Assembly (NCBI GenBank): GCA_018402085.1
Contig: JAGYJM010000002.1
Span: 1,674,001 to 1,738,000, forward strand
Source of the DNA: Flavobacteriales bacterium
GTDB lineage: Bacteria > Bacteroidota > Bacteroidia > Flavobacteriales_D > Sanyastnellaceae
Direction: 5' to 3'
DNA length: 64,000 bases
In this document: positions 1,806-44,757 of the stretch, piece after piece
How the letters are laid out: every line of letters starts with the position of its first letter
Numbering within the stretch: the first letter of the stretch is position 1
Made by a program: the position numbers and the translations under genes
The notes under the pieces: generated by a model
Database searches by the model: none
Told to the model about the DNA's origin: nothing
Seen by the model: the letters and a program-made list of their open reading frames with translations, nothing else

Positions 1806-1869
1806 AGTCGCGGTACTGTGATATACCGATAGGGCTTTGTATCTTCGGACATTACCTTAGACCTTCACT

Positions 1870-2916
1870 ATGAGACACTTCTTTCTCACGCTCGCCTTGT
1901 TCGTGGTATCGGCAACCTTGTTTGCTCAATTGGATATCTCCGGTTGCACCAATCCATTCGCCGTCAATTTCAATCCGAATGCGCTTGAAGATAACGGCTC
2001 ATGTGAAAACCACCCCACACTGATAGAACTTAACGCCACACTCGATGAAGCGATTGTGATCGGTACAGGGATCAGCAATGAGCATATGGCCATTGCTAAT
2101 CACGGACCGGTACAGATGGGGCTCAAGATTAACCGCAGGTTCATCTCAGATATTATTCCTGAAAACGGAAATGACTACTTTGCCTGGACTGGCTACAGTC
2201 CGACCAGCTTTAATGACCCTACGCCCGTTCCGGGTCTGGCGCGGTGGGATTTTATTTACAGCTTCAACCTTGGAAACTACACCTTTGAAGACCTTGAAGC
2301 ATACCTGATCATAGATTTTGATCCACTAGACAGCCCGGGGCAGGCAGCTCCTTTCGAGCTGAATATTTCTGAGGTGCTTGATGACCTGAACCAAGACGAC
2401 CTAGCATCACGCCAGGGATCAGAAAACCTCGGCTTCGCCTACTGGCCAGGCCTTGCGGGCCCTGACGCCAACTTGTTCGACCCGATGAACCCTGGAGTCT
2501 ATGACCTCGGGCTTCGCCTTGATAACCAAGGTGGATTCACTCTTGCAGAGGTATCTATCCGTGTGATCGTAGAAGAAGCCATTGAGGGGTGTACCGATCC
2601 TGCGGCGTGCAATTACGATCCTTTGAATAATCTTGAAGACAACTCCTGTGTCTACCCCGAACCCCTTTTAAACTGCGACGGCACATGTGCAAACGACACA
2701 AATAACAACGGTGTTTGCGACGAGAACGAAGTGTACGGATGCATTTATCCAGAGGCTCTAAACTATGACCCGCAGAGCACTTCAGATGATGGTTCGTGCA
2801 TCTTTGAGAGTGTCTGCGGGTCAGATTGTGAGCGCTTCGATGCGGATGGCAATGGGATCGTTCAGGCGAATGATCTCCTACTCTTCCTAACCTTTTACCA
2901 GATTCCTTGCGAGTAA
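1870..2916 (+). CDS. Secreted GCTDP-module protein with Cys-capped EF-hand C terminus
   Basis: 348 residues with a clear signal peptide (about 1-19, ending LFAQ). The mature protein begins with one GCTNP...DNGSC module, followed by a roughly 170-residue globular region without recognisable family motifs. A second GCTDPAACNYDP module comes next, then a thrombospondin-type-3-like DTNNNGVCDENE loop, a third GC..PEALNYDP...DDGSC module and a final single EF-hand (DADGNGIVQANDLLLFL) flanked by cysteines. No T9SS type A or B sorting domain is present. The same ending occurs in the proteins at 17696-22384 and 42691-44697. A TATCTTCG box at about 1839-1846 is a likely promoter. Function unknown. Confidence 0.8.
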   Translation: MRHFFLTLALFVVSATLFAQLDISGCTNPFAVNFNPNALEDNGSCENHPTLIELNATLDEAIVIGTGISNEHMAIANHGPVQMGLKINRRFISDIIPENGNDYFAWTGYSPTSFNDPTPVPGLARWDFIYSFNLGNYTFEDLEAYLIIDFDPLDSPGQAAPFELNISEVLDDLNQDDLASRQGSENLGFAYWPGLAGPDANLFDPMNPGVYDLGLRLDNQGGFTLAEVSIRVIVEEAIEGCTDPAACNYDPLNNLEDNSCVYPEPLLNCDGTCANDTNNNGVCDENEVYGCIYPEALNYDPQSTSDDGSCIFESVCGSDCERFDADGNGIVQANDLLLFLTFYQIPCE

Positions 2917-17695: not shown

Positions 17696-20600
17696 TCAGT
17701 CTGAACAAGTCAGACCAAAGAATGTGAGGAAAAATAGCAAGTCGTTAGAGTCAACTTCGCCGTTGTGGTCGAAGTCTCCAGGACAAGTAATGTCGTTCGG
17801 GAAGAAACATGAACCATCATCGTACACCGCATTCGGGTCATAATTTTCTGCCAAAGGATAAGCACAGCCTGAACAACTCATGATCTCACATGAACCGTCA
17901 TCATCAGTAGCGTCAGGATCGAAATTGCAAGCAAAAGCATAAGTGCATCCCGGAATTTCGTCTACATCACACACTCCGTCATTGTCACAGTCCTGAACGC
18001 AGTTACCCTCGCAGTCAAACCCAGGGTCTGCAAACACACATGATCCGTCATCATCAATCGCTTCAGCATCAAAGTTACAGGCAGCAGGATCTGTGCAACC
18101 TGCCGGCGGCGTCGAATTAGGAGCTCCCGGAGTGCCTCCACTCACAAATGATGCCTGCCAATTCTCTCCAAGCGCATTGTCGCTGTTTATGTCTGTAAGC
18201 TCGAGACTCGGACAACCACCGTCCGCTGCAGACGGCCAGGTACCACCGTCATCGTATGGCACTTCATCAATAATGTTGCCGAATGGATCGGTCAGGACAA
18301 TGGTCTCACCGGTATTGTTAATACCTCCTGTGGCCCATTCAAAGACCTGGTAGCCATTTCCCGAATAAGACGCAGCATTGATAGTCAATACAATGTATTC
18401 ACCTGCAGCAATGGATGTCTCCGCAGGGAAGGCAAAGTCAATCGCCTGGCTAATGGTATATCCCTCAAGATCAATGGCATTTGCGCCATTATTGAAGAGC
18501 TCAAAAAACTCGAAATCGGAATCAGGTCCCTGGTCTGTGCAAGGGTTGTAGTGAATTTCAGTAATCACAATGTCCGCTAACTCAAAGATACAGGAGCCGT
18601 CATCGTTGTTGGCATCCGGATTGAAGTTGATTGCTTCAAGGTCAGTGCAGCCTGAGATGACGCATGACCCGTCATCAATCGTGGCCGATGGATCAAAATT
18701 ATCTGCGTCCGGGTTCGTACAACCGGCGCAGGAATCGAACTCACATGAGCCATCGTCACAGCCCGCGGCCGCGTCGAAGTTGCAGGCGGTAGGATCCGTG
18801 CAGCCCGCTGTGTCGGTGCCACCGCAGTTGCCGCAGGCATCGAGTTGGAGGCAGGAGCCATCGTCGATAGTGGCGGCAGGATCAAAGTTGCAGGCCGTTC
18901 CATCGGTACAACCTGCGCAGGAATCGAACTCACATGAGCCATCGTCACAGCCCGCGGCAGCGTCGAAGTTGCAGGCAGAAGGATCGGTGCAGCCCGCTGT
19001 GTCGGTGCCGCCGCAGTTGCCGCAGGCATCGAGTTGGAGGCAGGAGCCATCGTCGATCGTGGCGGCAGGATCAAAGTTGCAGGCCGTTGGATCGGTACAA
19101 CCTGCGCAGGAGTCGAACTCACATGAGCCATCGTCACAGCCCGCGGCCGCATCGAAGTTGCAGGCAGAAGGATCCGTGCAGCCCGCCGTGTCGGTGCCGC
19201 CGCAGTTGCCGCAGGCATCGAGTTGGAGGCAGGAGCCATCGTCGATCGTGGCGGTAGGATCAAAGTTGCAGGCCGTTGGATCGGTACAACCGGCGCAGGA
19301 GTCGAACTCACATGAGCCATCGTCACAGCCCGCAGCAGCGTCGAAGTTGCAGGCAGAAGGATCCGTGCAGCCCGCTGTGTCGGTGCCGCCGCAGTTGCCG
19401 CAGGCATCGAGTTGGAGGCAGGAGCCATCGTCGATCGTGGCGGCAGGATCAAAGTTGCAGGCCGTTGGATCGGTACAACCGGCGCAGGAGTCGAACTCAC
19501 ATGAGCCATCGTCACAGCCCGCAGCAGCGTCGAAGTTGCAGGCAGAAGGATCGGTGCAGCCCGCTGTGTCGGTGCCGCCGCAGTTGCCGCAGGCATCGAG
19601 TTGGAGGCAGGAGCCATCGTCGATCGTGGCGGCAGGATCAAAGTTGCAGGCCGTTGGATCGGTACAACCTGCGCAGGAGTCGAACTCACATGAGCCATCG
19701 TCACAGCCCGCGGCCGCGTCGAAGTTGCAGGCAGAAGGGTCCGTGCAGCCCGCTGTGTCGGTGCCGCCGCAGTTGCCGCAGGCATCGAGTTGGAGGCAGG
19801 AGCCATCGTCGATCGTGGCGGCAGGATCAAAGTTGCAGGCCGTTGGATCGGTACAACCGGCGCAGGAGTCGAACTCACATGAGCCATCGTCACAGCCCGA
19901 GGCCGCGTCGAAGTTGCAGGCAGAAGGATCGGTGCAGCCCGCTGTGTCGGTGCCACCGCAGTTGCCGCAGGCATCGAGTTGGAGGCAGGAGCCATCGTCG
20001 ATCGTGGCGGCAGGATCAAAGTTGCAGGCCGTTGGATCGGTACAACCTGCGCAGGAGTCGAACTCACATGAGCCATCGTCACAGCCTGCGGCCGCATCGA
20101 AGTTGCAGGCAGAAGGATCGGTGCAGCCCGCCGTGTCGGTGCCGCCGCAGTTGCCGCAGGCATCGAGTTGGAGGCAGGAGCCATCGTCGATCGTGGCGGC
20201 AGGATCAAAGTTGCATGCCGTTGGATCGGTACAACCTGCGCAGGAGTCGAACTCACATGAGCCATCGTCACAGCCCGCGGCCGCATCGAAGTTGCAGGCA
20301 GAAGGATCGGTGCAGCCCGCCGTGTCGGTGCCGCCGCAGTTGCCGCAGGCATCGAGTTGGAGGCAGGAGCCATCGTCGATCGTGGCGGCAGGATCAAAGT
20401 TGCATGCCGTTGGATCGGTACAACCGGCGCAGGAGTCGAACTCACATGAGCCATCGTCACAGCCCGCGGCAGCGTCGAAGTTGCAGGCAGAAGGGTCCGT
20501 GCAGCCCGCTGTGTCGGTGCCACCGCAGTTGCCGCAGGCATCGAGTTGGAGGCAGGAGCCATCGTCGATCGTGGCGGCAGGATCAAAGTTGCAGGCCGTT

Positions 20601-22384
20601 GGATCGGTACAACCTGCGCAGGAGTCGAACTCACATGAGCCATCGTCACAGCCCGCGGCCGCGTCGAAGTTGCAGGCAGAAGGATCGGTGCAGCCCGCTG
20701 TGTCGGTGCCACCGCAGTTGCCGCAGGCATCGAGTTGGAGGCAGGAGCCATCGTCGATCGTGGCGGCAGGATCAAAGTTGCAGGCCGTTGGATCGGTACA
20801 ACCTGCGCAGGAGTCGAACTCACATGAGCCATCGTCACAGCCCGCGGCCGCGTCGAAGTTGCAGGCAGAAGGATCGGTGCAGCCCGGGAATACGCAAGCA
20901 TCATCACATGTAGCGTTGGGGTCAAAATTACATGCGCCTGGGTTGGTGCATCCAGCCACTCCACTGAATCCAACAGTAACGGGATTCGTTGTTTTGGTGC
21001 ACCCGGAGTTATCTTGAGCCGTCACAGAGTAAGTTCCTGGAGCAACACTAAAAACTCCTGTGGGCTGAAAGTTTTCACCATCAATTGAGAAAGTAATTCC
21101 GCCGCTGCCCCCGAATCCTTGTGCCACAACGAAGCCATTGTCGACCTCCGGGCAGGTGGCGTCGGACGATCCCGTAATTGCTACCTGGATAGGAGTTGGC
21201 TGTGTAATCGCAAATGTGTTGCTTACCGCAGTGCAACCGTTTGCGTCTTGTGCATAAACCACATAAGTTCCGGGCGCTAATCCGTCAAGCTCATTGCCAG
21301 ATTGATTGAGGTCATCGGGAGCCAAGCCAATCGAGATGGGTTCTGTACCCCCCACAATCTGTAGTATAACTTGTCCATCGCCGGCACCGTTACAGGAAAC
21401 ATTGATCACTTGATCAATGACGAGATCGAAAGGGTCGGCTTCAGGTATTATCACCTGGGTTTGAACAGAACATCCCTGACCGTCTTGAACTAACAAATCA
21501 TAGGTACCGGAAGAGAGGTTACTGAAGGTTTGATTCAAGAGAGGGTTACCGTCATTGAGTGTATAGCTCACAGCACCTTGTCCGCCATTAGCAACTACCG
21601 TAAAGCCGCCGTTATCATCACCTTCGCAGGTAGGTATGGTGATGATGATGTCATCAATAACGAGTGTACAATCAAAGGTGCAGCTTCCGTCGTCAGTTGT
21701 GGCATTAGGATCAAAATTAGATGCATTAGGGTCTGTGCAACCAAATACGGCGCCGGGGTCAGAGCTAAAGGGGAGTTGCAGGAAGAACTGCCCGTTACTG
21801 TTATCGCCTTCAGGGAAGAGTTGTACATTGATGAATCCATCAACGACACCATCCGTAGTAAACTGACCGATAAGGACTTTAAGGTCAGCACCGGCGATTC
21901 CATTTTCGCTATTCTCTCCGAAGATGGTAAACCATGACCCACCGAATTGGCCGTCAATAATGATGCTATTTCCAGCAGAGAAATCTGTGAGCCAGGGATC
22001 CGTTTGTGACTCAACGGCGGAGACTTCATTACCGGGATCATTTTGAGATGCTCGTCCGATGGTCACGAAGCTATCGAATTCGACCTCAGGAAAAACGGGG
22101 AAAAGTGCGGGGTTGATTGCGGTTCCGATCTGACCTCCGAAAGGATTCTGGTAAAAGGAAGTGGTCGTTCTCACTTCAAGTTCTTCGCCGGCGAAGCCGT
22201 AAATAGAAGAAACGAAATCTGTTTCATTCTGGCAATTGACAAACAATCGGTAAGTGGTCATTCCATCGATTGCGGGAATAACGCCACCAGTATGTTCTTG
22301 AAAAACTTCGAGTGATACTCCGGTCACCTGACCACGGGAGAAAAGTGCGCAGCAAAGGCTGAGCAGGAGCAGAAAATTCTTCAT
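17696..22384 (-). CDS. Giant secreted Cys-rich repeat protein with SprB-like repeats, lamin-tail domain and EF-hand C terminus
   Basis: 1562 residues. Signal peptide about 1-18 (ending FSRGQ). Next comes an N-terminal domain of about 200 residues without a name, one GCTDPNASNFDP module and three SprB-like repeats (each with an APGTY- or SSGTYDL-type strand). After these follow some 24 GCTDP modules arranged as eleven 63-residue units. Each unit has a 27-residue half ending DSCA and a 36-residue half ending with the CGNCGGTDTA block. Then come a lamin-tail-like domain (ADIVITEIHYNP...), more GCTDP modules with a DCDNDGVCDVDE loop and the Cys-capped EF-hand (DFDHNGEVDSNDLLFFLTFFG). All modules have even cysteines and Asp-rich turns, suggesting a disulfide- and Ca-stabilised stalk. 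No T9SS domain seen. Confidence 0.88.
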   Translation of the reverse strand: MKNFLLLLSLCCALFSRGQVTGVSLEVFQEHTGGVIPAIDGMTTYRLFVNCQNETDFVSSIYGFAGEELEVRTTTSFYQNPFGGQIGTAINPALFPVFPEVEFDSFVTIGRASQNDPGNEVSAVESQTDPWLTDFSAGNSIIIDGQFGGSWFTIFGENSENGIAGADLKVLIGQFTTDGVVDGFINVQLFPEGDNSNGQFFLQLPFSSDPGAVFGCTDPNASNFDPNATTDDGSCTFDCTLVIDDIIITIPTCEGDDNGGFTVVANGGQGAVSYTLNDGNPLLNQTFSNLSSGTYDLLVQDGQGCSVQTQVIIPEADPFDLVIDQVINVSCNGAGDGQVILQIVGGTEPISIGLAPDDLNQSGNELDGLAPGTYVVYAQDANGCTAVSNTFAITQPTPIQVAITGSSDATCPEVDNGFVVAQGFGGSGGITFSIDGENFQPTGVFSVAPGTYSVTAQDNSGCTKTTNPVTVGFSGVAGCTNPGACNFDPNATCDDACVFPGCTDPSACNFDAAAGCDDGSCEFDSCAGCTDPTACNFDPAATIDDGSCLQLDACGNCGGTDTAGCTDPSACNFDAAAGCDDGSCEFDSCAGCTDPTACNFDPAATIDDGSCLQLDACGNCGGTDTAGCTDPSACNFDAAAGCDDGSCEFDSCAGCTDPTACNFDPAATIDDGSCLQLDACGNCGGTDTAGCTDPSACNFDAAAGCDDGSCEFDSCAGCTDPTACNFDPAATIDDGSCLQLDACGNCGGTDTAGCTDPSACNFDAAAGCDDGSCEFDSCAGCTDPTACNFDPAATIDDGSCLQLDACGNCGGTDTAGCTDPSACNFDAASGCDDGSCEFDSCAGCTDPTACNFDPAATIDDGSCLQLDACGNCGGTDTAGCTDPSACNFDAAAGCDDGSCEFDSCAGCTDPTACNFDPAATIDDGSCLQLDACGNCGGTDTAGCTDPSACNFDAAAGCDDGSCEFDSCAGCTDPTACNFDPAATIDDGSCLQLDACGNCGGTDTAGCTDPSACNFDAAAGCDDGSCEFDSCAGCTDPTACNFDPTATIDDGSCLQLDACGNCGGTDTAGCTDPSACNFDAAAGCDDGSCEFDSCAGCTDPTACNFDPAATIDDGSCLQLDACGNCGGTDTAGCTDPSACNFDAAAGCDDGSCEFDSCAGCTDGTACNFDPAATIDDGSCLQLDACGNCGGTDTAGCTDPTACNFDAAAGCDDGSCEFDSCAGCTNPDADNFDPSATIDDGSCVISGCTDLEAINFNPDANNDDGSCIFELADIVITEIHYNPCTDQGPDSDFEFFELFNNGANAIDLEGYTISQAIDFAFPAETSIAAGEYIVLTINAASYSGNGYQVFEWATGGINNTGETIVLTDPFGNIIDEVPYDDGGTWPSAADGGCPSLELTDINSDNALGENWQASFVSGGTPGAPNSTPPAGCTDPAACNFDAEAIDDDGSCVFADPGFDCEGNCVQDCDNDGVCDVDEIPGCTYAFACNFDPDATDDDGSCEIMSCSGCAYPLAENYDPNAVYDDGSCFFPNDITCPGDFDHNGEVDSNDLLFFLTFFGLTCSD
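18800..20884 (-). repeat. Eleven tandem 189-bp repeats (minisatellite-like) in the giant gene
   Basis: The marker for the CGGTDTA block recurs about every 189 bases from about 18810 to about 20700 (eleven copies), and copies differ at only a few bases (for example GCGGCC/GCAGCG/GAGGCC in one place). The period is a multiple of three, so units can be gained or lost without a frameshift. Long open frames on both strands here are by-products of this periodicity. Confidence 0.9.
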
Positions 22385-24083: not shown

Positions 24084-25565
24084 CTACAAACTTCCCTGCG
24101 CGCTTAGCTCTGCCTCCATGATCCGGAGAAGCTTCACCATTGCTGTGGTATCCTGATGACAATATTGTTCGAGATTCTCGCCCAGCCTCTTTTTCACTAT
24201 CGGATCAGAGGTGCGCAGCATTTCTTCGAAGGTAGTTGCGGCTTCATACCCGTTGCTGACTTCAAGTTGAGCGTAATCGTTTTCGGGAGAAAACGCGTGA
24301 ATGACTTTCTTGAGCGATGAGGTGCCGTTCATGTGGTCTTTGTAGAGCCACTGATTCCTGAAAGGTTCTTGAATATCAACGAGTTTGCTGATTGCGTCGT
24401 CAATAGATTCTTTGATGCCGGGTACCAGGCGTTTGAGCTGTTTCAAAATCATCCTTTCATTGGCAGCATCGTAGACAACGACAGAAGCGACCTCCTCGAG
24501 TGCTTTCAGGAGCGATTCAGCTAAAAGGTGCAAGTTAACATCCCTCGCTTTTGCGAGGAAATGAAAGACCTCGAAGGGTTCACCCTGCGCTTCTTGACGG
24601 CGCACTGAGAACTGAAAAGGCAATTGCTGCAGCGGCGCCATTCCCTGTTGGATTGGAAAAACAGGACCAAATGATTCGAAATCAAGAAAAGCAACCGGCC
24701 ACTGTACCTTTTTGTACCAATTTCGCAATTCTCCGAGTTGGATCATAGCTCTTTGAGAGCGCCAGGCCTCAACCTGTTTAAGCTGTGAGGGTGTTTGCAA
24801 TCTACGGGCGGGAACTTCAGTCATTTCTTCGTATCCCTCTTTGAGCAACTCCCATTCGAGACCTTCATTGCCGGTCAAATGCAGAACCGACCGAGGGTTT
24901 TGCAATCGTCCCCAGCAGTGTTGAACAAACGGGCAAGGGTAAGGATTCTTACATTGCGGACCTATTGGTACAATGGGCGTATCGGCTACCTGTTGCAAAT
25001 CTTTAAGTCTCGACAAAATTTCTTGCGCTTCGGTTCGAAGTGCTTCGGCATGTTTCGTCAGATCGGTAAACTGGATAAATTCAGAGTGAGCCTGCCGGGC
25101 AGATATTCGGATAGAATTTCCGACGTGAGCCAACTCAATTGTCACCTGAGGAAATCGCTTATTGAGGGTTTCAAGCATGAACGCTGCAGCGAGGCGTGTT
25201 CGTTTCTTAATACCACGAGCTGCCCTTACCAACATGACCTTGCAGCATCCATTTTCAATTACGAGCACATCGGCAGAAATCCTCATCCCCTCCACCTCGA
25301 TCATGGGATCAAACAGCAGTGTATCTCCGCGGCCAAGCGCTGCTTCGGTTCGCGCAATGCGTTGTTTAAACTCTTCACCTTCTTTGAAGCAGTGGGTTCC
25401 TTTACCGCACACCTCAATCAAGGCATTTCTCAGATCAGCCTGGTTATAGTGATAAGCTGTTCGGGGCGAAGCATTGCGTTCTCCGGGGCTATGCATACTT
25501 AACCAAGCCGCCTTGTGACATCGCGAAGCTTTGAGGAAGACCGAGCGATCGATGACCAGTGCCAT
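24084..25565 (-). CDS. DUF2779 protein (Cas4-like plus RNase H-like exonuclease domains)
   Basis: 493 residues. The N-terminal half starts FLKASRCHKAAWL and ends with a Cys cluster (CKNPYPCPFVQHCW, about 210-223) like the iron-sulfur site of Cas4-type nucleases. The C-terminal DUF2779 half has FLDFESFGPVFP (metal-site Asp-x-Glu), LPFQFSV, VVVYDAANERMILKQL and a final CHQDTTAMV. Family knowledge suggests a nucleic-acid-processing enzyme, but no activity is proven for it. Its ATG shares one base with the stop of the upstream T9SS adhesin (TGATG), an unexpected coupling. A GGAT hairpin is at 24540-24557. Confidence 0.85.
   Translation of the reverse strand: MALVIDRSVFLKASRCHKAAWLSMHSPGERNASPRTAYHYNQADLRNALIEVCGKGTHCFKEGEEFKQRIARTEAALGRGDTLLFDPMIEVEGMRISADVLVIENGCCKVMLVRAARGIKKRTRLAAAFMLETLNKRFPQVTIELAHVGNSIRISARQAHSEFIQFTDLTKHAEALRTEAQEILSRLKDLQQVADTPIVPIGPQCKNPYPCPFVQHCWGRLQNPRSVLHLTGNEGLEWELLKEGYEEMTEVPARRLQTPSQLKQVEAWRSQRAMIQLGELRNWYKKVQWPVAFLDFESFGPVFPIQQGMAPLQQLPFQFSVRRQEAQGEPFEVFHFLAKARDVNLHLLAESLLKALEEVASVVVYDAANERMILKQLKRLVPGIKESIDDAISKLVDIQEPFRNQWLYKDHMNGTSSLKKVIHAFSPENDYAQLEVSNGYEAATTFEEMLRTSDPIVKKRLGENLEQYCHQDTTAMVKLLRIMEAELSAQGSL
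24540..24557 (-). repeat. GGAT-hairpin element 6 (inside DUF2779 gene)
   Basis: Minus strand CTCGC-AAAA-GCGAG then GGAT. In frame as LAKARD. Confidence 0.75.
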
Positions 25566-28500
25566 CAGCGTATGAGTATTACTGTACCCTTACGCTCAAA
25601 TGAATTGTTTCTGATTCCCACCGCCTCAATGACCCAATTATACACTTCATTCTGTCCATAATATGCCCCTCCATTCACTTCACCGAGCCACGGTTCATCA
25701 ATAGATTCGCTGTAAAACACGAGTTCACCCCAGCGATTGTATATCCACAATTTAAAGCTCCGGATGCTGTGCCCTTCAGCCTTGAAGACATCATTGACAC
25801 CATCGCCATCTGGGGTAAATGCATTCGGCACGAAGATGTCCATTTCAGGATTGAACACCCCAAAAATAGAATCACGACACCCAAACGCTGTCTCTGCTGT
25901 GAGGGTAATTACCTGAGTTCCGTTGGTCAGGAATTCGTGCGTAGGTTCGAATTCTTCGATTATTGTACCATCATCGAAATCCCATGTGAAGGAAGCGTCT
26001 TGCGGAAAACTGGTGTTAAACGTTTCGATACCCCAGCCATCGGTGTATGAGAAGTCAAAAGAAGCGTTGACCTGATCTACAGACACTGCAACGGATTCTT
26101 CAGCTATTTGAAGGCAAGCATCGATGACCGTTACGGTATAAGATTGAGATTCTTGCGGACTCACGGTTATAGAAGGCTGCGATTGACCACCGGGCATCCA
26201 GATGTACTGATAAGAGCCAATCGGGTTAACGACTTCCACATTAAGATTGACGGACTCACCCCTGCATATAAGGGTGTCAACGGTAATCAGAAGCTGGGGT
26301 GGATTTTCGGGAATGGTGATCTGGATCTGATCTGTGGTCGTATTACCGCATGCGTCTTCGATCATTACTTCAGCCATGAGGTTTCCATTGGCCGTAAACT
26401 CTAAGGTGGGGCTGTTGCTTTCAGCTTCATTTTCATTTACGAACCAGTCATAAATGTACTCACCTACCCCGCCCTCGGGAGCTGCATAAAGGGCAACTTC
26501 TTCCTGGCACGGCACGAGCAGATCACTTCCCAGGTCAACCGATAGCGGTACCGGCGGCACATTTACCAGAAGCTCGTCACCACCTGTAAAGCCGCAGGCA
26601 TCAGTAACCAGTAGTTCAATACTGGTATTTTCATCGGTTTGGAGCAGCAAATTGTCGTCAAACGATACTTCCTCACCGCTTTCGATCCATGTGTAAGCAT
26701 AAGGCCCGGTGCCTCCCTCAATGGCGGGTTCAATATTGGAAACATCGAGACATGTGACGATTAGGTCTTGACCGAGATCAACGCTGATAATGTCAGGCGC
26801 AATTCCAATATTCAACTCGGCAGATGCCACGTTACCACATTCGTCAGTGACAATGAGAGCAACTCCGACTTCGCTATCAGGGGTCACACTGAAGAATTCT
26901 TCATCGCTCACTGTGCCATCATCAGCACTCCAGCTAAACGTATAATCACCTACTCCACCACTAAGAGATTCAGGTTCAATGGCTGTGGCTGTCAGGCATG
27001 GCGTTTCAAAATCAGCAGGGAGTACCAGATCAATGGGTGTAGGAGTAAGCTCAACAGTGACCTGATCTGACTGTATGTTGCCACATTCATCTTCAACCGT
27101 CAGCATGACCGTTTGGGCGTCATTTACAACAACTTCAATGCTTTCGGCGCTTCCCTGGTCTGTACCGTTGACCGTCCATTGATACGTAAATGCACCTATT
27201 CCGCCTGATACTTCGAGGGGTTGGAGCTCGATTGACTCCTGGCATGGCGCCTCGAGACCATCAGGCAAGTTGACAATTACTTCGACACTGGCAAAGGTAT
27301 ATTGAAGTTCATCGGTACCGGTAGCGCCGCATCCATCGGTCACCTGGAGAGTGAGGCTTCCTTCCTGGTCAGGGTCATACTCAACCTGTGCCTGCTGGCT
27401 GATTTCATTACCTTGTGGATCATACCAAACATAGGTGTACTCTCCATTACCTCCGCTTGCATCAGCTGTTCCTTCAACGAAGGTCAGACAGTCGATTTCG
27501 ATAGGTCCTCCGGCATCCGGGATAAGGGGATAATAGGTCTGTACTTCGACCGTGACTTCAGTTTCTACGGGTTCAACGCCACATGTATCTGATACCGTAA
27601 CGCTGTAGCTTGAAGTACTGCCGGGGCTCACCGTCAGCTCAGGTCCGCTTGTGCCATCTTCCCACACATAGGTATACAATCCATAGCCGCCGGAGGCTTC
27701 AGCCTGGAGGGTTGCGGTTTCATTGCAATCTATAAAGAGGTCATCAGCGTTCAACAAGAGGGGTTCAGGCTCTGCGATATATACGGTTTCGATTTGTTCT
27801 TGTACAATGAGGCATTCTCCCCCTCCTGTGTAGGTGAAAATGATGCTTTCAACGCCTTCTGTTTCACCATCAAGGAAAGCTGTGATCGGGATAACAACCT
27901 CATTGATTCCCGGCGGAAACACAATCTCGCCAGGAATTTCGGAGAAGTCTACGCCATTTTCAGCAGTGCCACCCACGTCAATTTGTAAGATCTCTTCCGG
28001 CAGGTTTTGTCCGTTCCGGATAAAAATCAACTCACTGGTACCACACCCCTCGTAGATCGTACTATCGTTGAGTCCGATTTCACCAATATTCAAGCTAACA
28101 TCGAGCGTAGGAGTGTAGAAACTATTCTCTTCAAAGAACACGGCGCTGTCAAGTCCGGTGTCACCTGCATCAGCAACCGCAATTTTAATATGATACGTCT
28201 CTCCGCAGGTGAGCCCGCCATAAGCAGCCTGCAGCGGGACTGTAAAACCGTCGAACTCCACGCTATTTGGATCACCATTGTTTGTATTAATCACATAGAA
28301 CTCACAGTTCGTGCACCCCATATCGTTGTTTCCGGCATTGACGTTATCAATGGTCACCGGCAATGTGGTGCCCGGAATAATGGCAATATTTTCAGCATTA
28401 TTTGAGAACGGGCCGTTGATACCTGGGCCGCTTAAAAAGAAGCCGAAAGCGTCGTTAAAGCTGGAAAACACAAACTCGGGATATTCTTCGCTTGCCCAGA

Positions 28501-28918
28501 CATAATTGAACACCACACTGTCACCTTGTGCAACGAAATCGAACTCAATCACCGCTGCATCATTGAGGGTGAAGAATGGGTTTGCCTGTGCGAGATCAGG
28601 GTCAGAAACGCCAAAATTCCCGCCGCCCAGAGTGGTGCCTCCACCATTATTTGGGCTATTTGCCACGGCTACACTTCCGCTAGAGATAATCATTCCACCA
28701 TCGAAATTGACACCGCAATTCGTGCATTCGAACGAACCTATCTGTTCATCACCTCCTGTGTAGGTTATGTTACTGACCTGTGCTCCTACATCGAGGATAA
28801 GGTTCACTGCATCAGCAGGAGTCGTTCCGGGGTCAGCAACGAGCTGTGCATGAAGCCAAAAAGGCATCAGAAGTGCAATACAAGAGAACAATCGTTTTCG
28901 AACAACGGACTGTGTCAT
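25565..28918 (-). CDS. T9SS type B adhesin-like protein with choice-of-anchor L and PKD-like repeats
   Basis: 1117 residues from the ATG at 28918 (two codons inside a TTG-start frame). Signal peptide ends LHAQ. The N-terminal choice-of-anchor L domain (about 25-270, FECTNCGVNFDGG, WASEEYPEFVFSSFNDAFGFFLSG) is followed by Calx-beta-like sequence, about six Ig/PKD-like repeats with the CGN/CGATG pattern (each near 80 residues), a PKD domain (FTWDFDDGT) and a C-terminal CHU_C/type B sorting domain (VPNAFTPDGDGVNDVFK...WGELVFYSE). Predicted to be exported by Sec, passed through T9SS and bound to the cell surface. Likely adhesion or gliding function. Confidence 0.9.
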   Translation of the reverse strand: MTQSVVRKRLFSCIALLMPFWLHAQLVADPGTTPADAVNLILDVGAQVSNITYTGGDEQIGSFECTNCGVNFDGGMIISSGSVAVANSPNNGGGTTLGGGNFGVSDPDLAQANPFFTLNDAAVIEFDFVAQGDSVVFNYVWASEEYPEFVFSSFNDAFGFFLSGPGINGPFSNNAENIAIIPGTTLPVTIDNVNAGNNDMGCTNCEFYVINTNNGDPNSVEFDGFTVPLQAAYGGLTCGETYHIKIAVADAGDTGLDSAVFFEENSFYTPTLDVSLNIGEIGLNDSTIYEGCGTSELIFIRNGQNLPEEILQIDVGGTAENGVDFSEIPGEIVFPPGINEVVIPITAFLDGETEGVESIIFTYTGGGECLIVQEQIETVYIAEPEPLLLNADDLFIDCNETATLQAEASGGYGLYTYVWEDGTSGPELTVSPGSTSSYSVTVSDTCGVEPVETEVTVEVQTYYPLIPDAGGPIEIDCLTFVEGTADASGGNGEYTYVWYDPQGNEISQQAQVEYDPDQEGSLTLQVTDGCGATGTDELQYTFASVEVIVNLPDGLEAPCQESIELQPLEVSGGIGAFTYQWTVNGTDQGSAESIEVVVNDAQTVMLTVEDECGNIQSDQVTVELTPTPIDLVLPADFETPCLTATAIEPESLSGGVGDYTFSWSADDGTVSDEEFFSVTPDSEVGVALIVTDECGNVASAELNIGIAPDIISVDLGQDLIVTCLDVSNIEPAIEGGTGPYAYTWIESGEEVSFDDNLLLQTDENTSIELLVTDACGFTGGDELLVNVPPVPLSVDLGSDLLVPCQEEVALYAAPEGGVGEYIYDWFVNENEAESNSPTLEFTANGNLMAEVMIEDACGNTTTDQIQITIPENPPQLLITVDTLICRGESVNLNVEVVNPIGSYQYIWMPGGQSQPSITVSPQESQSYTVTVIDACLQIAEESVAVSVDQVNASFDFSYTDGWGIETFNTSFPQDASFTWDFDDGTIIEEFEPTHEFLTNGTQVITLTAETAFGCRDSIFGVFNPEMDIFVPNAFTPDGDGVNDVFKAEGHSIRSFKLWIYNRWGELVFYSESIDEPWLGEVNGGAYYGQNEVYNWVIEAVGIRNNSFERKGTVILIR

Positions 28919-28995
28919 GAGCAATAGGTGCGTTAGCTATTTAAGGTTATCATAATGACACAATTAGCCGGTGTAAGGTTGCATCGGGTAGGTGT

Positions 28996-42690: not shown

Positions 42691-44697
42691 TCACTCACAA
42701 GCCTCACCAAACTGGGATAGCACCACGAGAATATCTGCCGCATTCACCGTACCATCGGCGTTTACATCCGCAATACAGGTGGTTGGCAAGGTCACACATT
42801 GCTGCAGGTCAGTATCGAATGTAGTGCCTTCACCGCAATAGATGGCGGGCTCAACACCTATGCATTGTCCGAGCGCTTCGTCCCAGACAGTATTAGGGCC
42901 ACAGACATCTTCACAATTTTCGTTTTCATCACAAATGCCGTCTCCGTCTGAATCGTACAGGCAATTGCCTTCACAATCGAGGTAAGGCTCTGCAGGAAAG
43001 GTGCAACTGCCATCGTCTGTGGTAGCTTCAGGGTCGTAATTGCATGCCATATTATCGGTACAACCAGGAATCTCGGTAAACAGGCACACGCCGTTCAGCG
43101 CTATGCTGAGATCATACCCTGCTCCTGCTGAAGCATCCCAGCCATTCAAAAGGTCGAGCGTCCAGTCACCGTTACCCGTAAGACCTTCAGCAGCAAGGTT
43201 GACCGTTGCCGTGTAAGTTCCGTTATCGTTGCTTTGCCACGCTGCCGGGAGAACGGCATAATTACCGATCGAATTGCAGCCCAGGCTGAGGTTGAATCCA
43301 CCCCATTCAGTACAGTTGCCGTTTGGATCCGTAATCGCAAAAACAGCATCAGCCGGCCAGCTGCCGTCGCCCCCCTCATTGGTCCAGTTTAAGGTGATAT
43401 CTGCTGAAACCAATGATCCGGTTCCGTTCTGAATAAGCGATGAAGCTGCACCACCGCTGAGGGATGCTGTCAGAGATATGGCATTGTCACAATTACAATC
43501 AAATCCGGAAGGCGCAAATATGCAGCTGCCATCGTCGCATTGCGCCGCGGCATCGTAGTTGCAGGCTGTCGGATCCGTGCATCCTGCCGCAGCCGCTGCA
43601 ATAAAATCGACCACAGACTGCCGTATCGCAGGAAGTTGCGCGTAGAGGTTATCGCTCGGACAAGCCGTCGTGTTTACGTCGCGGTGTCCGGAAATACGGG
43701 GCAACACCTGCACCCCAAAGGCCTGTGTCTGGATGTCATCACTGCTTAGCGGGTCAAAGCTCTTGAAGTCGTACCACCAACCGAGCAGTTCGTAGAGCTT
43801 ATCGAGCTGTGGCGCTGTGGCAAGTTCCACATCGAGGTTACCGAGGAAACAAATGCCAATCGACTCGTCATTCGACGCCCCTGCATGCGCCGCACGCACA
43901 TCCACCTCCGGGAGCTGCGGGTTGTAGCGCCCCTGGTACAGATTGCCGTATTTATCCAGCAGGTAATTGTAGCCAATGTCTGCCCAGCCGAGGGTGTTCA
44001 CGTGGTAGTTCCAATACGATTGCACAATGGCGGCGCCGTCAGTGTATGTCTGCGGACTGGCTCCGTGGTGAATGAGAGTATGGGTCGGACTGATATTCGA
44101 GACGGAATAAGTTGTCAGCACACTTGTGCAGCTTGCCGAACCTCCGCACCAGTCTTCTCGGGGAATCATAACCGGAAAGTCAAGGCATGAATCGCTTCGT
44201 GGCGTCGGGGATGATGCGGGAGATCGGTCACCCTCGTTGTTGAACAGGTTCACTTCGATATACTGCACCCCCACCGGAAAGAAAAGATCAAGTTCAATAA
44301 CCTCGTGAGAGGTGGCATCCCAGGTGAACAGCGCATTTGTACGGTACATCTCCCCTGCCACTTCATCCGGAGCATATTTCGTTGTGGCGTGCTGCCAGTC
44401 GCTTACCGCTCCATCTTTCTCTGTGCGCCAGCGCACCCGAAAATCACCCACCGTTTCCACAGGGTAAGGCGTGCGAAAACCGATACCGAAACATGAAAAA
44501 GGAGACTCAGGCTGCAGACTAACCCTGTAGTTCACCCCGCCACTGAGCGGCGTTGAACAGATATAGTCTGTTCCTCCGGTTGTGTAAAGCGATGGCTGCA
44601 CCTGTTGGATGAACGTTGAAGAAACATCGCTTTGTCGTTGTGCGATCAGTGATACCAAGCAAAGAGCTAAAAAAAATGTCAGAAATAGGCGTCGCAT
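42691..44697 (-). CDS. Secreted PGRP-type N-acetylmuramoyl-L-alanine amidase with GCTDP modules and EF-hand C terminus
   Basis: About 668 residues from the ATG at 44697, which gives the signal peptide MRRLFLTFFLALCLVSLIAQ. An N-terminal region of about 120 residues precedes an Amidase_2/PGRP domain (about 140-330) with the zinc ligands in LIHHGA, GHRDVNTTACPSD (His and Cys). Then come GCTDPTACNYDAAA, a beta-rich domain of about 140 residues, a second GCTDNMACNYDP module, a DSDGDGICDENE TSP3-like loop and the Cys-capped EF-hand DVNADGTVNAADILVVLSQFG. It cleaves the amide between MurNAc and the stem peptide. A zinc-binding secreted lysin or cell-wall enzyme is likely. The start codon lies in an inverted repeat. 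Confidence 0.85.
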   Translation of the reverse strand: MRRLFLTFFLALCLVSLIAQRQSDVSSTFIQQVQPSLYTTGGTDYICSTPLSGGVNYRVSLQPESPFSCFGIGFRTPYPVETVGDFRVRWRTEKDGAVSDWQHATTKYAPDEVAGEMYRTNALFTWDATSHEVIELDLFFPVGVQYIEVNLFNNEGDRSPASSPTPRSDSCLDFPVMIPREDWCGGSASCTSVLTTYSVSNISPTHTLIHHGASPQTYTDGAAIVQSYWNYHVNTLGWADIGYNYLLDKYGNLYQGRYNPQLPEVDVRAAHAGASNDESIGICFLGNLDVELATAPQLDKLYELLGWWYDFKSFDPLSSDDIQTQAFGVQVLPRISGHRDVNTTACPSDNLYAQLPAIRQSVVDFIAAAAAGCTDPTACNYDAAAQCDDGSCIFAPSGFDCNCDNAISLTASLSGGAASSLIQNGTGSLVSADITLNWTNEGGDGSWPADAVFAITDPNGNCTEWGGFNLSLGCNSIGNYAVLPAAWQSNDNGTYTATVNLAAEGLTGNGDWTLDLLNGWDASAGAGYDLSIALNGVCLFTEIPGCTDNMACNYDPEATTDDGSCTFPAEPYLDCEGNCLYDSDGDGICDENENCEDVCGPNTVWDEALGQCIGVEPAIYCGEGTTFDTDLQQCVTLPTTCIADVNADGTVNAADILVVLSQFGEACE

Positions 44698-44757
44698 AAG
44701 GTCAACTTTAGCCATTGGAAGATAAGCAGATAATAGCAATTTTAAACTTGACCTTAT
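44696..44757. promoter_or_regulatory. 15-bp inverted repeat around the amidase promoter and start codon
   Basis: ATAAGGTCAACTTTA (44696-44710) faces its reverse complement (44743-44757) with one mismatch and a 32-base gap. The minus-strand promoter-like box TATCTTCC (44717-44724) lies in the gap and the ATG in the left arm. Could be an operator or an mRNA hairpin. Confidence 0.4.

Follow-up and report, generated by a model that had tools for sequence, protein, structure and literature searches.

A string of near-identical cysteine-rich beads, with signs of concerted evolution, in a probably secreted modular protein of a Flavobacteriales bacterium

The stretch of DNA analysed here, which we call the window, is 64 kb long and corresponds to positions 1674001-1738000 of contig C2 in a two-contig, 3.78-Mb Flavobacteriales genome (G000). 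On its minus strand lies an open reading frame with an ATG start (17696-22384; G000:C2:1691699-1696384) that encodes a modular protein of 1562 residues. The N-terminus, as read from the sequence, probably resembles a signal peptide, and the protein is thus probably secreted. This leader and a domain of ~195 residues with no named function make up residues 1–214 (21743-22384). The domain has relatives in other proteins of the family; Pfam gave no match for the window member and a best E-value of 0.046 among 13 members, a profile search of the PDB gave a best E-value of 1, and a model built from 3 sequences (pLDDT 50) was not usable. Residues 215–477 (20954-21742) hold the first module of the GCTD type and then a region that is SprB-like in orthologues, with PF13573 (SprB) called in those of G001 and G034 and neither in the window protein nor in the orthologue of G002. 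There follow, at the array's upstream edge, a diverged module of 23 residues (residues 478–500; 20885-20953), then eleven near-identical units of 189 bp (residues 501–1193; 18806-20884) and, at the downstream edge, a decayed twelfth unit (18617-18805) that differs from the eleven by 55–59 bases. The remainder comprises a Lamin tail domain (PF00932, E = 1.8e-18; residues 1270–1377, 18254-18577), three further GCTD-type modules (residues 1429–1526; 17807-18100) and a Cys-flanked dockerin-like tail (residues 1529–1562; 17699-17800) with the stop codon directly after it. The window protein matched 0 NCBIfam families. A neighbouring gene (25565-28924, minus strand) encodes a 1119-residue protein that has a choice-of-anchor L domain (NF038133) and, narrowly below the cut-off (32.9 of 35 bits), a type IX type B tail.

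Tandem Repeats Finder, run on the whole window, places the array at 18717-20886 with a period of 189, 11.5 copies, 97% matches and a score of 4060. The only other row scores 52, and the repeat is thus well beyond chance. The eleven full units differ pairwise at 0–10 of 189 bases, units 1 and 2 being identical, and 12 of the 16 variable columns are silent (counted by eye). The original prediction of eleven near-identical 189-bp units in a 1562-residue protein is borne out by both the repeat search and the unit alignment. Each 63-residue unit consists of a 27-residue and a 36-residue module, and the accompanying claim of even cysteines holds for the unit, which has 10, but not for the single module, which has 5. 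Because the differences between units concentrate at the third codon positions of the 17696-22384 frame (mean 0.070, versus 0.009 at first and 0.003 at second positions), this frame is under coding constraint. The same codon-position pattern agrees with the earlier view that the long open frames in other phases (815, 798 and 545 residues) are side effects.

An array of this regularity could have been produced by the assembly itself, through over-collapse or duplication of reads, and indeed the draft contigs of three relatives (G007, G016 and G003) end within the array. We consider this very improbable for the window, where the array lies inside a 3.48-Mb contig of a genome in only 2 contigs and its 11 units comprise 10 distinct sequences, while a relative assembled as a single 4.1-Mb contig has a still longer array. 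A short-read artefact, named at the outset as a possible undoing of the finding, is accordingly unlikely.

The module, which we refer to as a bead, has a 21-residue core, GCTDxxAxNYxxxAxxDDGSC, with cysteines at positions 2 and 21 and usually more. From all loci collected we obtained 736 distinct modules with a pattern that demanded G1, C2, N9 and C21 and restricted positions 3, 4, 7 and 10, so that the conservation of these positions is partly by construction. Freely kept are A14 (717 of 736), D17 (651), D18 (640), G19 (633) and S20 (643); D11 is kept in 538. A cysteine at position 8 is present in 508 modules, and 441 of these have a further cysteine at position 16 or in the linker, compared to 129 of the 228 in which C8 is missing (odds ratio 5.05, p = 1.7e-18, a value overstated by the relatedness of the modules). 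We read these cysteines as a putative C2–C21 disulfide with an optional second bridge, the pairing being predicted from their co-occurrence. AlphaFold2 gave a pLDDT of 95.1 and a pTM of 0.65 for three beads, so that structure prediction, proposed earlier as a check, returns beads that fold confidently in a relative orientation that is uncertain.

We found no dedicated Pfam or NCBIfam model for the bead: the window protein and its three-bead segment pass the cut-off only for the lamin tail domain, and NCBIfam searched with 35 three-bead segments gave a best E-value of 0.014, in 1 of the 35. Other matches were taken as chance or compositional. The window protein itself matched PF15025 at E = 1e-4, short of the cut-off, and one other protein, at locus L098, matched PF22416 on a module stretch (28.9 bits against a cut-off of 27, with no stretch passing alone). 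Of the 35 three-bead segments, 11 matched DUF4468 (best E = 1.1e-4) and 5 matched PsaN (best E = 8.9e-4), the window segment matching neither. A literature title search for GCTDP and DDGSC found nothing related.

A profile of the bead searched against the PDB matched seven sequences up to an E-value of 10, and five of these are MPEG1 (perforin-2), one protein in several versions, at E-values of 9e-4 to 2e-3; the next match was at 0.81. The matching segment is described, in the available part of PMC6989145, as a truncated EGF-like domain at a hinge point between domains. The bead resembles this module (PDB 6u2j, 6sb3) in its core, GCTDxxxxNFxxxAxxDDGSC in MPEG1, and in the spacing from first to last cysteine, which is the same. 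In contrast to the window beads, the MPEG1 module is present in a single copy, forms the hinge of a pore former and is without C8. Foldseek searches of the PDB with the three-bead model returned 0 matches at E ≤ 10, which is weak evidence for such a very small fold, and a VIA-align search with the beads had no matches. Against viral models Foldseek gave 23 matches, 13 of them at E ≤ 0.001, and there were weak matches to giant-virus MACPF proteins (1.3 Å over 27 columns and 1.0 Å over 24 columns, with E-values of 0.036 and 5.3). On the viral models, single beads superpose at 0.3–1.3 Å over 22–27 columns, whereas the 13 best, longer alignments superpose at 5.3–13.9 Å. Because single beads superpose tightly and long stretches do not, the modelled bead string may be flexible; the superpositions suit such a chain no less well than a stiff rod.

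The array DNA matches 74 places in G000, its own locus included, and GCTD modules are found there in proteins of up to 3203 residues, often between other stretches. When the three-bead profile was run against 296 genomes sampled evenly across the phylum, 15 matched at E ≤ 1e-6. Since E-values below 1e-16 were limited to G000, G007 and G044, the other 12 having one match each between 1e-8 and 1e-6, dense bead arrays look like a trait of the window's family. We also noted clusters of large frames, exceeding 3000 residues at the largest, at loci L086-L088 and L098 (G000:C2 754-821 kb and 2752-2772 kb), in which GCTD triplets are separated by spacing stretches of ~300–340 residues; the one protein of these clusters that was scanned has glycine-rich domains (PF21722). 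Several adjacent large frames in these clusters overlap out of phase, which may reflect frameshifts or indels in the assembly.

These properties of the beads could also be explained if the array were mainly a surface for binding metal or matrix, or for cross-linking, that acted by valency towards calcium, mineral, polysaccharide or, through disulfides, other proteins, with its length being secondary. The acidic residues kept at positions 11, 17 and 18 fit such a surface, as do the odd number of cysteines per bead and the many G000 proteins in which modules stand between other stretches rather than only in long strings. However, the 10 cysteines of a unit permit full internal pairing, and the relative in MPEG1 is described, in the part of PMC6989145 available, as an inter-domain hinge. 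We regard a primarily binding array as unlikely and favour a role of the bead string as a spacer.

A whole-protein search over 60 genomes (one genome per species, G000 included) matched 59 of them through shared modules, N-terminal stretches or lamin-tail stretches, and orthologues were chosen by genomic position. The window gene is flanked by genes for formate-THF ligase, FdhD and an FdhF/YdeP-type protein on one side and by a histidine kinase gene on the other. The same layout is found in G002, in G001 and, on the FdhF side, in G034; profile searches confirmed the histidine kinase in G002, as well as FdhF-type genes in both G001 and G034, and G001 and G002 are collinear across the region. 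The neighbours in G007, G016 and G017 were judged by reading alone, and no synteny was seen at the module-array locus of G003. Counted with one pattern throughout, the window protein has 30 modules, and its orthologues have 60 in G002 (2426 residues, from a single contig), 16 in G001 (1014 residues, from a draft of 80 contigs in which the modules may be collapsed) and 10 in G034 (907 residues). The 27 + 36 unit is present 11 times in the window, 23 times in G002, 3 times in G001 and once in G034, so that this spacing recurs in the syntenic orthologues, while the sequence of the unit is species-specific. Four more orthologues also have modules but are seen in part, with incomplete or uncertain counts, as the contigs of G007, G016 and G003 stop within the array and that of G017 begins shortly before it. 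It had been proposed that a period of 189 bp, by keeping the frame, lets the copy number change; between species this holds, the module count at the syntenic locus ranging from 10 to 60. Beside the orthologue, G002 and G001 also have two other GCTD proteins with a tail like that of the window protein (L073 4009-8986 and L074 9467-13688) that are absent beside the window gene, and one of these adjoining proteins differs in length between the two species (768 versus 516 residues).

Comparison of the units points to their having been exchanged. The eleven window units have a mean pS of 0.102 and a pN of 0.0050 (ratio 0.049), compared to a pS in the N-terminal part of the same gene of 0.342 between the congeners G001 and G002 and of 0.784 between the window and G002. 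Because the unit pS is lower than both, the shared ancestry or evening-out of the units appears to postdate the nearest species splits compared, although the units would not all be fresh copies. In a four-gamete test 20 of 36 informative site pairs were incompatible, the silent variants being scrambled among the units as expected from repeated exchange; some of the incompatible pairs can also stem from recurrent mutation. Units inside the window array differ on average by 0.027, versus 0.279–0.345 to the arrays of six other species. We saw no clear trend of unit difference with distance along the window array. The near-identity, the pS values, the four-gamete test and the interspecies comparison together uphold the original prediction of recent expansion or homogenisation.

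In a tree of 49 units the labels need 9 changes, compared to a mean of 24.0 when shuffled. Units 1 and 2 of G001 pair by position with those of G002 (support 100/99 each), while 21 of the 23 G002 units and one G001 unit fall in one set (86/90, below the star threshold); edge units that retain orthology and inner units that lose it are a prediction of unequal exchange. The units of G001, G002, G003 and G017 do not form single clades. In G002, four pairs of units two positions apart have no more than 2 differences between them, a probable sign of dimer duplications. The window units need 2 changes, one unit of L100, another G000 locus, lying loosely among them on a long branch. Exchange between the window array and L100 was considered, and the evidence on it is divided: the tree joins them, but protein distance gives no support (0.224 for L100 versus 0.206 for the orthologues). 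GC-biased gene conversion was likewise considered, as the GC content at fourfold sites is 0.72 in the window array versus 0.43 elsewhere in the gene; as a general cause of the GC-rich array it is ruled out by the other species, of which 6 of 7 have lower GC in the array than in the rest of the gene, with G016 higher.

Taken at the level of sequence, the window gene thus shows what we interpret as concerted evolution by unequal recombination, as in the 'Periscope' proteins, here seen between species. Periscope proteins, including SasG, Rib, Sgo_0707 and CdrA, are described in the available part of PMC8201768 as having tandem, near-identical folded repeats of >50 residues whose DNA identity permits recombination and whose copy number varies. 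The window array resembles them in its 63-residue units with 0–10 differences in 189 bases among 11 (threshold as in the available part of PMC8201768). Unlike Periscope repeats, the window beads are of 27 and 36 residues, have disulfide-type cysteines and belong to a protein with a dockerin-like end. Repeat number varies here between species at a syntenic locus, in Periscope proteins between strains. Periscope proteins, moreover, are elongated rods that carry an N-terminal ligand-binding domain on a surface anchor, whereas the window protein is known by its sequence and the predicted fold of its beads. By analogy, we propose that it may work like a Periscope protein, as a candidate member of the class.

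We hypothesize that the window gene encodes a secreted modular protein in which the string of disulfide beads is an in-frame adjustable spacer resized by unequal recombination, and we hold this to be the probable explanation overall. The string would space the unnamed N-terminal domain and the SprB-like region from the dockerin-like C-terminal tail. The two-bead, 63-residue unit would be old, but unequal recombination within the array would repeatedly remove, restore and homogenise its DNA copies, such that copy number and length drift while selection holds the amino acid sequence. The length of the spacer would then set the reach of the N-terminal part from a surface or matrix, where the protein is presumed to lie. 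The best-supported part of this proposal is the homogenisation and in-frame resizing of the bead string, for which recombination is the likely route; spacing is the most likely use of the string, and a role in setting stalk length, as first suggested for the array, is plausible. Alternatively, array length could be unselected, the expansion and contraction of the DNA repeats being incidental and a harmless bead being tolerated under purifying selection against misfolding alone. Copy numbers that differ widely at one locus, down to 10 modules and a single 27 + 36 unit in G034, and the many module-rich genes in G000 are compatible with this. Nevertheless, each bead is under strong constraint (pN/pS 0.014–0.17), and no orthologue lacks modules, whether among the four complete ones or the four known in part; we therefore think it rather improbable that length is free of selection and retain the adjustable spacer.

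The last residues of the protein form a single dockerin-type repeat flanked by cysteines, and a profile of the tail matched the PDB with a best E-value of 1.9e-12. The tail has the calcium-loop repeat motif of type I dockerins (e.g. 2y3n, 1ohz); in contrast to these, it is a single repeat, is flanked by cysteines and stands at the very end of the protein, and two tandem repeats and a cohesin were not found. Some other G000 proteins have two dockerin repeats where the window protein has one. The cohesin family PF00963 had 0 matches in G000, and the control search matched in 1 of 14 genomes, which leaves room for a diverged partner. G000 has 91 tail matches at E ≤ 1e-3, merged by hand, with the last repeat of each frame kept, to 74 places, and a stop codon follows within 5 residues in 67 of them and not in 7. 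Across the 60 genomes the tail is present in all 37 members of the window's family (f1, G000 included), with 1–110 matches, and in 3 of the 23 others, with one match each. Among 199 genomes of the order it was found in 50 of 51 family members versus 14 of 148 others (1–3 matches), where 115 genomes without a match were assigned to other families from a kinship-ordered list. Two more proteins in the window, at 1861-2916 (plus strand) and 42691-44757 (minus strand), have a dockerin-like tail together with GCTD-type modules, and the latter contains an N-acetylmuramoyl-L-alanine amidase domain (PF01510, E = 1.2e-11).

The dockerin-like tail resembles the type IX secretion (T9SS) type A sorting domain TIGR04183, which has 144 matches in G000, in that both stand at the C-terminus of many proteins there. 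The window protein is unlike type A cargo: it is without TIGR04183, its gene is not among the 144 places, and it has the dockerin-like tail instead. Among the loci examined, the module-bearing proteins of L081, L083, L091, L096 and L099 do end in a TIGR04183 tail. On C2, which has 71 dockerin-like tails and 136 type IX tails, no dockerin-like tail has a type IX tail within 1.5 kb on the same strand; on C1, a type IX tail lies 0.9 kb upstream of one of the three dockerin-like tails, on the same strand and outside the latter's own 283-residue frame. Thus, in the ~74 tail-bearing proteins of G000 the tail is not in one frame with a type IX tail. The tail may have a docking or sorting role. We tentatively suggest, as a possibility we would rate below even chances, that the tail is a lineage-specific sorting or docking signal on ~74 proteins that operates beside the type IX tail through a receptor other than a known cohesin, with arrays as spacers to the working domains and beads as recombination handles for domain swaps; the last is suggested because the lamin tail domain was called in the window protein and not in its three orthologues G002, G001 and G034.

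The array alone is a good but ordinary case of a known process, and it is the link to perforin-2 and the family-wide tail that raise its interest. If our interpretation is right, a class described, in the available part of PMC8201768, mainly from human colonisers would gain a protein of variable length under concerted evolution, from a Flavobacteriales family represented here mostly by drafts and MAGs, and a bacterial bead for which neither Pfam nor NCBIfam has a dedicated model would be linked to a module that serves as the hinge in an immune pore former. The result on the tail may matter more than the array, as a family-specific tail poses the testable question of how the cell places dozens of proteins that have no type IX tail, and of what binds them.
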